Below the pieces are notes generated by a model, which saw only the letters and a list, made by a program, of their open reading frames with translations, was not told where the DNA came from and ran no database searches. Of a DNA stretch of 64,000 nt, positions 59,714 to 64,000 are shown piece by piece. Source of the stretch: Mesoflavibacter zeaxanthinifaciens DSM 18436 (GTDB taxonomy: Bacteria; Bacteroidota; Bacteroidia; Flavobacteriales; Flavobacteriaceae); the NCBI RefSeq assembly GCF_000422365.1, contig NZ_AULQ01000002.1:1-64000 (forward strand), written 5' to 3'. Positions within the stretch are counted from its first letter, which is position 1, and every line of letters begins with the position of its first letter. The translations under genes and the position numbers were made by a program.

Positions 59714-62491
59714 ATGAAATTAAAAACACTTTTAGTCTTTATTTGTATTCTGGCAAGTCCTTTTGCTAACGCTCAATTTACACCATATTTTGAAAATTAT
59801 TCACTTTCAAAATATAATGCAAGTAACCAAAATTGGGGAATATCTAAAGGAGATGACGGTAAAATTTATGTTGCTAACAACAACGGACTTTTAATTTATA
59901 ATGGATTAAATTGGAAAATTAAATCGTTACCTAATAAAACAACTATAAGATCTGTTTTAGCGGTAAAAGACAAGATTTACACTGGTTCTTATGAAGAATT
60001 TGGATATTGGACTTACAATGACAAAGGTCAAATTATCTATCATTCATTATCACATTTACTAAATAAAACTAAATCAACAAGTGAAGAGTTTTGGCAGATA
60101 TTAGATTACAACGATAAGATCGTTTTTAGATCGTTTCAAAATATTTACGTTTATGAAAATGATAAAATCACTAAAATTAATTTACCATCTACAGTTATTT
60201 CTTGCAGTATAGTTAATAACACTTTATATGTTTCAACTTTAAACAAAGGTGTGTTTATACTTAACAATCAATTAAAATTAACTCCTTTCATTCAAGATGA
60301 TATTATAGCAGGAGATAGAATAATATCTATTTCTAACTATAAAAATCAATTGCTACTTACAACAGATTTAAAAGGTTGTTTTATTATTAAAAATAAAAAG
60401 TTAGAACCATTAAACTTACCCATAAACGAAACTTTAAAAAAATATCAACTTAATCGTTTTGGACAGCTTGATAACGGATATTTAGTTTTTGGAACTATCA
60501 AAAATGGACTTTATATAACCAATCATAATGGTGAAGTTGTTTATAATATAAACAAAGAAAATGGACTTGCTAACAATACTGTTTTAAGCATTTTAATTGA
60601 AAAAAATGAAAATATTTGGCTGTGTTTAGATAATGGACTTTCTAAAATTAACTTAAAAAACAATATCTCTTATTACAATGATGTAACGGGTAAATTAGGA
60701 GCTGTTTATGATGTTATAAATTTTAATAACACCATCTATATAGGAAGTAATACTGGTCTTTATTATCTAGACCAAGACCATAATCTTAAATTTATTGAAG
60801 GTACACAAGGACAAGTTTGGGATTTAAAAATAATTGATGATCAACTATTTTGTGGTCACAATAACGGTACATATCTGGTTTCAAAAGACAAAACTGAACT
60901 TATCTCTAACTTCACTGGTGGTTGGACTTTAAAAAAAATACCAGATACAGACATATATACCCAAGGTACCTATGGAGGTTTAGTTAAATTTAAAAAAGAG
61001 AATAATAAGTGGCAAGTTAACCATTTAGGTAAAACGACTAATCCTACGCGATTTTTAGAATTTGAAAACAAACAACAAGCATGGGCTGCAAACGCTTATA
61101 AAGGATTAAGTAAAGTTGTTTTTAATACTAATCATGATTCAATAACAAAAGTTGTAGACTATAATCATAAAGGTTTAGAAACAGATTATAACGTAAGAGT
61201 TTATAAACTTAAAAACACCATTTGTTTCAAGACAAATAATGGTTGGAAAAAATACGAGCCCTTATTAGATAGCATAGTACCATATCCTTTTTTAAATGAA
61301 AAGATAGGTAAAAACTCAGATGTAATTTCAGAAGCGTCAACAAATAGTATATTTTTTAAAAACAATAACGGAATTATTAAACTAGATGAAGATAATTCTG
61401 TAAGAGAAATTTTAACAAGAAACTACTATGACAACCGTATTATCTTAGGTTATGAAAACGTATCAAAATTAAACGACTCAACATACACATTAAATCTTAA
61501 CGATGGTTTTTTAATATTTAATCCTAATCATAACTTTTCTGCTCAATCACCAAAAACTCCAGCTATAGAGCAAATAAAAGTTAATGATACTTATGTGAGT
61601 TTAGAAAATAAAGTTATAGACATACCCAATAATGGTAATATCAATATTACTATATCATCACCTGGTTCAACTAGCCATAGTTTTGAATATAGCCTTACTA
61701 CAGATCCAAATAAATGGGAAAAAGTAGATAATGAAAACCTGGTACTATCTAATCTAAAAAATGGTGATTTTGGAGTGCTTTTTAGAACCACTAATAAATC
61801 TGGACAAACATCTGATGTAAAATCATTAAAATTACACGTACTTCCACCTTGGTATAAATCTAGTCTTGGATTTATACTATACTTTATTGCTGCATTAATC
61901 CTTACGGCTATTTTTTATTTTTTACACAAGCGTAAAATGTATAAAGAACAAAGAAGACTTGAAATTGAATTAAAAAAAGAACAACAGCACTTATTAAGAG
62001 AAAAAAACATAGAAAACGAACGCAAATTAGTAGAAATTAAAAATGAAGCTTTAGAAAGCGAAATTCAATTAAAGAGCAAACAACTAGCAAATACCGCAAT
62101 TGCACTAGTTAAAAAGAACGAAGCTTTACTAGAAATAAAAAAAGATCTTCAAATTAACGAAGGGCAGTTTAGCAATAAATTAATTAACAGAAGAATTCAG
62201 AAAAAAATAGATCAAACCATTGGTAACAAAGATCAATGGGAAATATTTGAATATAATTTTAACCAAGTACACAAAAAGTTTTTCAATCAGTTAAAAGAAA
62301 AACATCCAAAATTATCACCTAAAGATTTAAAGCTTTCTGCCTACATCAAAATGAATCTAACCACAAAAGAAATTGCACCTCTAATGAACATATCTACACG
62401 AGGTGTAGAAACGCATAGATATCGTCTTAAAAGAAAACTAAAACTAGATAAAGAAGACTCTCTTACCGAATATTTACACAGTTTTAATTAG
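59714..62491 (+). CDS. Membrane-spanning propeller/triple-tyrosine sensor with LuxR-type HTH output
   Basis: This 925-residue one-component regulator has a signal peptide (about 20 residues, ending ANAQ). A large periplasmic two-component-regulator-type propeller follows (about 22-610; 'WGISKGDDGKIYVANNNGLLIYNGLNW', 'ENIWLCLDNGLSKINLKN'), then a triple-tyrosine-like Ig domain (about 620-708) and one transmembrane segment (about 716-735). Next come a cytoplasmic coiled coil rich in Glu/Lys (about 738-815) and a C-terminal helix-turn-helix ('LSPKDLKLSAYIKMNLTTKEIAPLMNISTRGVETHRYRLKRKLKL') of the LuxR/GerE kind. It has no histidine kinase or receiver domain, unlike the hybrid regulators of many polysaccharide loci. 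Its position directly before a SusC gene suggests it controls that locus. Confidence 0.9.
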   Translation: MKLKTLLVFICILASPFANAQFTPYFENYSLSKYNASNQNWGISKGDDGKIYVANNNGLLIYNGLNWKIKSLPNKTTIRSVLAVKDKIYTGSYEEFGYWTYNDKGQIIYHSLSHLLNKTKSTSEEFWQILDYNDKIVFRSFQNIYVYENDKITKINLPSTVISCSIVNNTLYVSTLNKGVFILNNQLKLTPFIQDDIIAGDRIISISNYKNQLLLTTDLKGCFIIKNKKLEPLNLPINETLKKYQLNRFGQLDNGYLVFGTIKNGLYITNHNGEVVYNINKENGLANNTVLSILIEKNENIWLCLDNGLSKINLKNNISYYNDVTGKLGAVYDVINFNNTIYIGSNTGLYYLDQDHNLKFIEGTQGQVWDLKIIDDQLFCGHNNGTYLVSKDKTELISNFTGGWTLKKIPDTDIYTQGTYGGLVKFKKENNKWQVNHLGKTTNPTRFLEFENKQQAWAANAYKGLSKVVFNTNHDSITKVVDYNHKGLETDYNVRVYKLKNTICFKTNNGWKKYEPLLDSIVPYPFLNEKIGKNSDVISEASTNSIFFKNNNGIIKLDEDNSVREILTRNYYDNRIILGYENVSKLNDSTYTLNLNDGFLIFNPNHNFSAQSPKTPAIEQIKVNDTYVSLENKVIDIPNNGNINITISSPGSTSHSFEYSLTTDPNKWEKVDNENLVLSNLKNGDFGVLFRTTNKSGQTSDVKSLKLHVLPPWYKSSLGFILYFIAALILTAIFYFLHKRKMYKEQRRLEIELKKEQQHLLREKNIENERKLVEIKNEALESEIQLKSKQLANTAIALVKKNEALLEIKKDLQINEGQFSNKLINRRIQKKIDQTIGNKDQWEIFEYNFNQVHKKFFNQLKEKHPKLSPKDLKLSAYIKMNLTTKEIAPLMNISTRGVETHRYRLKRKLKLDKEDSLTEYLHSFN

Positions 62492-62524
62492 TACTTTTTT
62501 TAACAAAATAAGTCATTTTTAACA

Positions 62525-62633
62525 TACGTCAAAACTACGTCACTATAACGTTTTAGTTGCGTATTTGCTAATTTTTTAATAGTTTAACAGTACGTCATAC
62601 CTGTGTTTTTAACATTTTTACAATCATGACGTA
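62525..62633. promoter_or_regulatory. Cluster of four TACGTCA-type motifs upstream of the susC-like gene
   Basis: TACGTCA occurs at 62525-62531, 62536-62542 and 62591-62597, and its reverse complement TGACGTA at 62627-62633. The first three are spaced by 11 and 55 bases (one and five helical turns). They lie between the LuxR-type regulator and its likely target, so they are candidate operator sites. Confidence 0.55.
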
Positions 62634-62713
62634 ATCAAAATGTATTTCCAAATAAAAGATTTAGTTAAATAGCTGTTAATTTTACTTCACTAACATTTAA
62701 AAACTAAAAGTAA

Positions 62714-64000
62714 ATGAGAACAAAGATTAGCGTTTTATTCTTCTTCCTTCTTGGCATTACTTTATATGCACAAGACAGAACTATTACAGGTACTGTAACC
62801 AGTATGGAAGACGGATTGCCTATACCTAGTGCTAATGTCCTAATTAAAGGCACTAGTACAGGAACAAGTACAGACTTTGACGGCAATTATACAATTAGCG
62901 CCAAACAAGGTGATGTAATAGAATTTAGTTACATAGGCTTTAAAACAGTAGAAATAACTGTTGCAAACCAAAACACTTTAAACATAGCTTTAGAAACTCA
63001 AGTTTCAGACTTAGAAGAAGTTGTTATTATAGGATATGGTTCACAAAAAAAATCAGATTTAACCGGAGCAATAACAACTGTAGACTCAGAGGTTATTGAA
63101 AAAACACCTAACAGTAACGTAATGCAATCTTTACAAGGTAAAGTACCTGGTGTGCAAATTACAAGTGCAGGATCACCAGGAGATTCTCCTAATGTAAGAA
63201 TTCGTGGTATTAACACTTTAAACGGTAGTCAAAACCCACTTTACGTAGTTGATGGAAACTGGTATGATAACATTGACTTTTTAGATAATAGTCAAATAGA
63301 ATCTGTTTCTGTTTTAAAAGACGTTTCTTCTACAGCAATCTTTGGTCAAAGAGGTAGTAATGGTGTTATAATTATTAAAACTAAAGGCGGTAAAAAAGGT
63401 AGCAAACCTGTTATTACTTATAATGGATATACAGGTATTCAACATGCACAAAACGTATTAAAAATGGCTAACGCAGAACAGTTTGTAACTATGGTTTATG
63501 AGTCTGGATCTGCTGCAGATATACAATATGTAGAAAATGCTATACAACGTTTTGGTAGAAGTCGTGTTAATCCTAACATCCCTAACGTAAACACAGATTG
63601 GTACAGAGAAGTTTTAAGAGATGCACCAATTACAAACCATAGTTTAGGTATTACAGGTGGCGGAGAAAACTCTAACTACGGTATAAACACAAGTTATTTT
63701 GCCCAAGAAGGTATCTTAGACATGAAAAACGAATACGAACGTTTTAATATTCAAGGTAATATAGACATAGACGTATCAGATCGTTTTAAAGTAGGAGTAA
63801 ATAGTGCGTTTAGTAATGCTACCAAATATAACCCAGAAAACGGAGCATGGTTTCAAGCTTATTTTGCAGTACCTATTTTACCAAAATACGACTATACAAA
63901 CACAGCTGCAGACCCAATACCTTTTTCAGACGCTACTTTACTTGGTTATAGAGGATCACAAAACCCATTTCCGGCTATGACGTTTAATGATAATCAATTA
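62714..64000 (+). CDS. SusC/RagA-type TonB-linked outer-membrane receptor (partial)
   Basis: The gene runs off the right edge after 429 codons. A signal peptide (about 19 residues, ending LYAQ) is followed by a carboxypeptidase-regulatory-like domain (about 22-95; 'ITGTVTSMEDGLPIPSANVLIKGTSTGTSTDFDGNYTI'), then 'VVIIGYGSQKKSDLTGAITTV', which opens the plug domain. 'LQGKVPGVQITSAGSPGDSPNVRIRGINTLNGSQNPLYVVDG' is the SusC signature. Barrel strands begin near residue 230. Such receptors import oligosaccharides or peptides with a SusD lipoprotein, which should lie just beyond the window. Control by the propeller/LuxR-type regulator upstream is likely. The substrate is unknown. Confidence 0.95.
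   Translation, partial: MRTKISVLFFFLLGITLYAQDRTITGTVTSMEDGLPIPSANVLIKGTSTGTSTDFDGNYTISAKQGDVIEFSYIGFKTVEITVANQNTLNIALETQVSDLEEVVIIGYGSQKKSDLTGAITTVDSEVIEKTPNSNVMQSLQGKVPGVQITSAGSPGDSPNVRIRGINTLNGSQNPLYVVDGNWYDNIDFLDNSQIESVSVLKDVSSTAIFGQRGSNGVIIIKTKGGKKGSKPVITYNGYTGIQHAQNVLKMANAEQFVTMVYESGSAADIQYVENAIQRFGRSRVNPNIPNVNTDWYREVLRDAPITNHSLGITGGGENSNYGINTSYFAQEGILDMKNEYERFNIQGNIDIDVSDRFKVGVNSAFSNATKYNPENGAWFQAYFAVPILPKYDYTNTAADPIPFSDATLLGYRGSQNPFPAMTFNDNQL

Follow-up and report, generated by a model that had tools for sequence, protein, structure and literature searches.

The window, by which we mean the whole 64,000-nucleotide stretch of the Mesoflavibacter zeaxanthinifaciens DSM 18436 genome that was analysed, ends within the susC gene of a PUL. 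This gene is preceded by the gene for a predicted membrane one-component regulator, and the gap between the stop codon of the regulator and the ATG of susC (62492–62713), which has a GC content of only 23%, contains an array of short half-sites based on the word TACGTCA, followed by a predicted promoter. The features are as follows, with negative positions counted from the predicted transcription start discussed below:

59714–62491, + strand: gene for the membrane one-component regulator (925 aa), directly upstream of the array
62525–62531, + strand: half-site 1, TACGTCA, first of the distal direct pair, at about −164 to −158; exact match to the word
62536–62542, + strand: half-site 2, TACGTCA, 11 bp past site 1, at about −153 to −147
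62591–62597, + strand: half-site 3, TACGTCA, 55 bp past site 2 and 66 bp from site 1
62627–62633, − strand: half-site 4, the inverted copy (TGACGTA on the + strand), first of the promoter-proximal pair, at about −62 to −56
62638–62644, − strand: half-site 5, AAATGTA on the + strand (TACATTT on the − strand), 11 bp past site 4, at about −51 to −45
62677–62684, + strand: predicted −7 box, TAATTTTA (TAnnTTTG type), 50 bp from the start of site 4
62714–64000, + strand: susC gene of the PUL, which runs past the end of the window (whole gene L031:4714-7731, 1005 aa)

The array is thus laid out as a direct pair 11 bp apart, a lone direct site 55 bp further on, and an inverted pair that is again 11 bp apart; from start to start, the spacings are 11 and 55 bp, then 36 bp to the inverted copy, and sites 1 to 4 take up 109 bp in all. 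The initial annotation had recognised three direct copies and one inverted copy of TACGTCA here, and both the copies and the spacings of 11 and 55 bp between the first three are exactly as it described. Its count of four holds for TACGTCA itself; the half-sites, however, number five, AAATGTA at 62638–62644 having been missed. It had also placed the first three sites on the same face of the DNA. At 10.5 bp per turn, 55 bp corresponds to 5.24 turns, which puts site 3 about 85 degrees off sites 1 and 2; the phasing would be strict only at 11 bp per turn, and strict same-face phasing has therefore been dropped.

TACGTCA is not a common word: a genome-wide count gave 194 copies in the 2.97-Mb genome compared to 321 for the word read backwards, which served as the control. 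Outside the cluster, the window contains five copies, and shuffles predict 5.25 for the window as a whole. With 194 copies placed at random, around 1e-5 clusters of four TACGTCA in 109 bp would be expected. This genome has a single copy of the exact pair, TACGTCA-N4-TACGTCA. A search of the same genome for a wider regulon, allowing up to two mismatches in the pair, gave five matches compared to nine for the reversed control.

In Flavobacterium psychrophilum, a −7 box of the type TAnnTTTG is located at −12 to −5, according to the available part of PMC9723704. The position of the matching box in the window implies a predicted start of susC transcription near 62689 and, hence, a leader of 25 nt. 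With this start, the inverted pair occupies approximately −62 to −45, directly upstream of the −33 region. The distance between array and predicted promoter is fixed: a TAnnTT[TAG] box lies 49–51 bp from the start of site 4 at 33 of the 33 orthologous loci described below, even though its distance from the ATG varies.

The regulator comprises, in order, a signal peptide, two beta-propellers, a Y_Y_Y-like domain, a transmembrane helix, a coiled coil, and a C-terminal GerE helix-turn-helix (HTH). There is one transmembrane stretch, at about residues 713–735. The HTH is of the GerE/LuxR type, with a score for PF00196 of 28.4 bits (curated cut-off 23.5) at residues 867–913. No histidine kinase or receiver domain was found, GerE being the only domain detected by Pfam and long helices filling the space between the transmembrane stretch and the HTH in the AlphaFold model (mean pLDDT 82); the initial annotation had likewise described a C-terminal HTH and no kinase. 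The protein has the layout of SusR-like regulators, with a periplasmic sensor, one transmembrane helix, a cytoplasmic C-terminal HTH, and no kinase, and its gene lies beside susC, which starts 222 bp past the regulator stop and is followed by susD. The sensor itself is a two-propeller domain of the HTCS kind. The best Foldseek match of the periplasmic part is the BT4663 HTCS sensor (E 1.1e-33), and the matches to the BT4663 and BT3049 HTCS sensors lie between ~1e-33 and 2e-31 by Foldseek and between ~1e-34 and 1e-33 by sequence; a profile search gave 3v9f (3.6e-34) and 4a2l (2.4e-33), with 4a2m also among the best matches. The recognition helix reads R896-G-V-E-T900-H-R-Y-R-L, in which residue 900 occupies the aligned position of NarL Val189, a base-contacting residue of that protein's own recognition helix.

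Among 397 genomes of the family, 33 regulators were collected as orthologues (group A, 48–100% identity), the next relatives being only 41% identical. An 11-bp pair lies downstream of the regulator in 33 of 33, with no mismatch over its 14 bases in 22 cases, one in 10, and two in 1. The third site is found at 55 bp in 30 of the 33, at 54 and 57 bp once each, and is absent once (L066), and the inverted site lies 90–93 bp from site 2 in 29 and 102–104 bp in 4. Conservation is poor between the sites, and site 5 in many orthologues has only TAC in common with the consensus. The initial annotation had proposed the cluster as the operator of a membrane regulator without a kinase. That proposal is supported by the presence of the array beside every orthologue, by the rarity of the 7-mer, and by the distribution of the pair among genomes (see below). 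The neighbouring regulator, with its HTCS-like sensor and GerE domain, very probably has its operator here.

In four orthologues (L005, L006, L060, and L067), the position of the inverted pair differs by about 12 bp, or one turn (103 instead of 91 bp; 102 bp in L067). The shifted-pair orthologues for which susC was compared (G030 and G015; L005, L006 / L037, L038) have a different susC, with 33% identity. Because this is so at both of the loci compared, the jump from 91 to 103 bp probably reflects one or a few events, and it seems that the promoter was re-spaced when the transporter was exchanged.

Downstream of the array, the genes are, in order, susC, susD, a lectin-like gene, two genes for PF10091 proteins, GH3, GH2, a sulfatase, GH43, and a sugar transporter. 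The two PF10091 (GH144) proteins match the endo-beta-1,2-glucanase 5gzh with E-values of 3e-175 and 2e-150, so the substrate of the PUL is probably a beta-1,2-glucan. In all six of the orthologous PULs examined, GH3 is again present together with at least one PF10091 gene.

More distant regulators have the same kind of array with other words. Those of group B (~33–41% identity) retain the layout with the word TACATCA: a direct pair is followed, mostly at 88–93 bp from site 2, by TGATGTA with a partner that ends in GTA 11 bp on. The −7 box is found at 50–52 bp in 30 of the 33 loci that have the array, among 38 examined. The complete B array, with both the TACATCA pair and the inverted pair, gives 20 matches in the 397 genomes and none for the control, and all 20 adjoin a B regulator (19 within ~0.2 kb and 1 at 1.3 kb). 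In a further set from named organisms (Muricauda/Allomuricauda, Maribacter, Lutibacter, Leeuwenhoekiella, and others), for which 37 of 38 loci were used, one being too short, the exact pair is present in 25 of the 37; nine loci, all from Leeuwenhoekiella, match the pair exactly at one of its two sites, and three at neither. A different, conserved word, TACTGCA, occurs 43 or 44 bp past site 2 in group B (e.g., L008, L009, L073, L121-L137); it is found in 14 of the 38 loci of one B set, there at 43 bp, and in 23 of the 37 of the named-organism set, whereas group A has site 3 at 55 bp.

Group C contains more distant regulators of the laminarin-PUL type, with words of the type CACAACA and degenerate sites. 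One such paralogue is encoded in the window's own genome: a full-length regulator on contig 5 (G000; L033:4265-7084) precedes a laminarin-type PUL (SusCD, PKD, GH16) and has a C-type inverted pair, TGTATGTTTTTTGTAGCG. Group D (seven loci, L172-L178) is a second predicted operator layout for the same kind of regulator, with the genes in divergent orientation and, in six of the seven, two tandem pairs that point the same way and are separated by 32 bp, or about three turns.

The differences between these words could be related to the protein by a scan of 157 loci in which bases 4 and 5 of the word were left free (L029, L030, L144, L146, L152, and L158, which are short, unrelated, or without the array, were set aside). 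Thr is present at residue 900 in 41 loci. A perfect pair was found in 40 of them, and G occupies base 4 in 67 of their 80 sites, with at least one G in 39 of the 40 loci. Of the 115 loci with Ile, Leu, or Val, 66 have a perfect pair, and a single one of these 132 sites has G at base 4. A perfect pair was absent from 49 of these 115 loci in the same scan, and the one locus with Met has no pair. Exceptions are L176 (Thr), in which both sites of the perfect pair read TACTTCA and the other pair contains TACGCCA, and L095 (Ile), which has one TACGTCA. Nor is residue 900 alone in differing between the groups within the recognition helix; there are also G/S and H/K differences.

A tree was made from 120 of the 157 regulators, leaving out the DNA-binding end of the protein and the named-organism set (L121-L157). 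On this tree, parsimony gives three changes to Thr, which lead to group A (33 members, monophyletic), to group D (7, monophyletic), and to L186, a single C-type protein with Thr, one of whose sites is CACGACA. Residue 900 appears largely to set base 4, with Thr corresponding to G (TACGTCA) and Ile, Leu, or Val to A (TACATCA, CACAACA). That paralogous regulators have the same layout with other words, and that the word follows residue 900, is further support for reading the array as an operator.

The interpretation in which we have strong confidence is that the array is the operator of the upstream regulator, which would activate the susCD-GH144-GH3 operon from the promoter via two dimers, with its specificity set largely by residue 900. 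The regulator would be a dimeric protein of the inner membrane; its periplasmic double beta-propeller sensor would bind, as the inducer, an oligosaccharide from the substrate of the PUL, probably beta-1,2-glucan, and its cytoplasmic GerE domain would read the half-site TACGTCA, a unit defined by sequence conservation. One dimer would occupy the direct pair, sites 1 and 2, and another would occupy sites 4 and 5 directly upstream of the −33/−7 promoter, while site 3 would provide an additional contact. Since the two pairs face each other over ~100 bp, the intervening DNA is probably bent over the dimers. The array itself, its conservation, its constant spacing from the predicted promoter, and the way it co-occurs and covaries with the regulator are observed; binding, dimerisation, bending, inducer, and activation are inferred. 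This picture of two membrane-tethered dimers with bent DNA between their pairs would be the simplest. The change in spacing from 91 to 103 bp, roughly one turn, agrees with it; the 55-bp gap, at 5.24 turns, does not amount to whole turns.

Another possibility is that the same regulator on the same operator is a repressor, which would form a loop between the pairs when unliganded and be released by the ligand. Facing pairs of sites some 100 bp apart are indeed a typical geometry for a repression loop. However, a site just upstream of the −33 region is in the typical position for an activator, and this is where the proximal pair lies. Moreover, SusR is described as an activator in the available part of PMC3878776, and we consider repression unlikely.

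The control could also be exerted by another, unlinked transcription factor, such as a global regulator, that would bind the array while the neighbouring regulator acts elsewhere. This would be in line with the predicted Crp-type global sites that are also present at Bacteroides PUL promoters, according to the available part of PMC3878776. The genomic distribution of the exact group A pair argues against it. The pair is present in 28 of the 397 genomes, in 22 of them at the orthologue and in 6 elsewhere, compared to 7 matches for the reversed control. Of the 33 genomes with an orthologue, 22 have it beside the regulator, compared to 5 of the 364 others that have it anywhere at all (P ~2e-23, a value that ignores relatedness), which means that it is absent from 359 of the genomes without an orthologue. 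An unlinked factor might account for the few exact pairs away from such regulators (G202, G319, G185, and G375), but these look like chance matches, the six stray pairs being about as numerous as those of the control, and one of the six (G276) adjoins a group D regulator with Thr. The variation in the word with the recognition helix of the regulator is a further argument, and an unlinked factor is, in our opinion, very improbable. The remaining stray pair (G024; L040/L166, G024:C1:1231639) lies upstream of a predicted lipoprotein gene and 10 kb from a Thr-type regulator with the recognition helix RGVETARYRI; here, target and regulator may be separated.

Finally, it is scarcely credible that the inverted repeats act as RNA, in the form of a TACGTCA/TGACGTA hairpin in the leader transcript (an attenuator or riboswitch-like element): although sites 3 and 4 are complementary with a loop of 29 bases, and the change from the A word to the B word alters both arms, an Rfam search gave no match, the conserved −7 box downstream of all the sites puts them outside the susC leader, and neither the tandem 11-bp pairs, nor the lack of site 3 in L066, nor the TGAAGTA arm of L070 and L072, which does not pair fully, fits a hairpin.

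Several known systems resemble the proposed operator–regulator system in part. MalT of E. coli is a cytoplasmic, ATP-dependent activator of the GerE type that recognises asymmetric boxes, and these are grouped, as here, into direct and inverted boxes upstream of the promoter; unlike the present regulator, MalT is not membrane-bound, and its box differs. NarL also has a GerE domain and, in the available part of PMC4549865, asymmetric 7-bp half-sites that start with TAC and occur in several arrangements per promoter. However, NarL is cytoplasmic, is activated by phosphorylation, and prefers inverted 7-2-7 sites, whereas the pairs here are direct 7-4-7 pairs. The SusR-like regulators (BT3705 and SusR2, BT3091) share the absence of a kinase, the periplasmic sensor, the cytoplasmic C-terminal HTH, and the location beside susCD, to judge from the available part of PMC3878776. 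In that part of the same paper (Ravcheev et al. 2013), the operators predicted for SusR consist of direct repeats with a spacing of 67 or 77 bp. Here, direct sites with a comparably long spacing, 55 and 66 bp, occur alongside tandem 11-bp pairs at the ends of the array, the second of them inverted, which do not figure in the SusR description given there. Moreover, on a comparison of descriptions, the regulator here has a recognisable GerE domain, while that of SusR resembles no known domain according to PMC3878776 as available. The HTCS regulators (BT4663 and BT3049) have a periplasmic sensor with the same two-propeller fold; they differ in having an AraC-type HTH, whereas here there is GerE and neither a histidine kinase nor a receiver. 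Their operators, in the available part of PMC3878776, are predicted to be direct repeats ~21 bp apart. No published description of the present motif was found in a literature search of open-licence papers.

Marine flavobacteria degrade much algal polysaccharide, but to our knowledge, little is known of how PULs are switched on beyond the Bacteroides models. The array, whose layout is retained in many marine bacteria, offers a predicted operator, a promoter geometry, and a one-residue rule of specificity for a widespread regulator family (243 of the 397 genomes contain a relative at E<=1e-100). Together with the residue rule, it provides a way of assigning regulators to PULs from sequence, and the link between word and residue suggests how related sugar switches avoid cross-talk. 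A more general proposal, which we put forward tentatively as quite possible though short of probable, is that, in a large flavobacterial family, membrane one-component regulators of PULs recognise two tandem pairs of half-sites that face each other, looping ~100 bp of DNA, and that a simple code, in which the G/S and H/K positions serve bases 1 and 5 alongside residue 900 for base 4, keeps the paralogues of one cell insulated from one another. If this were true, operators and regulons could be predicted from the protein sequence.

In a genome of another genus (L037, G030:C7:90001-110000), GH3 is 98%, GH2 91%, and one PF10091 protein 93% identical to the corresponding proteins of the window's PUL (L031/L032). 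Despite these near-identical enzymes, the regulators are only 51% identical and the SusC proteins 33%. On these identities, the enzyme block in that genome is a recent transfer behind a different regulator and transporter.
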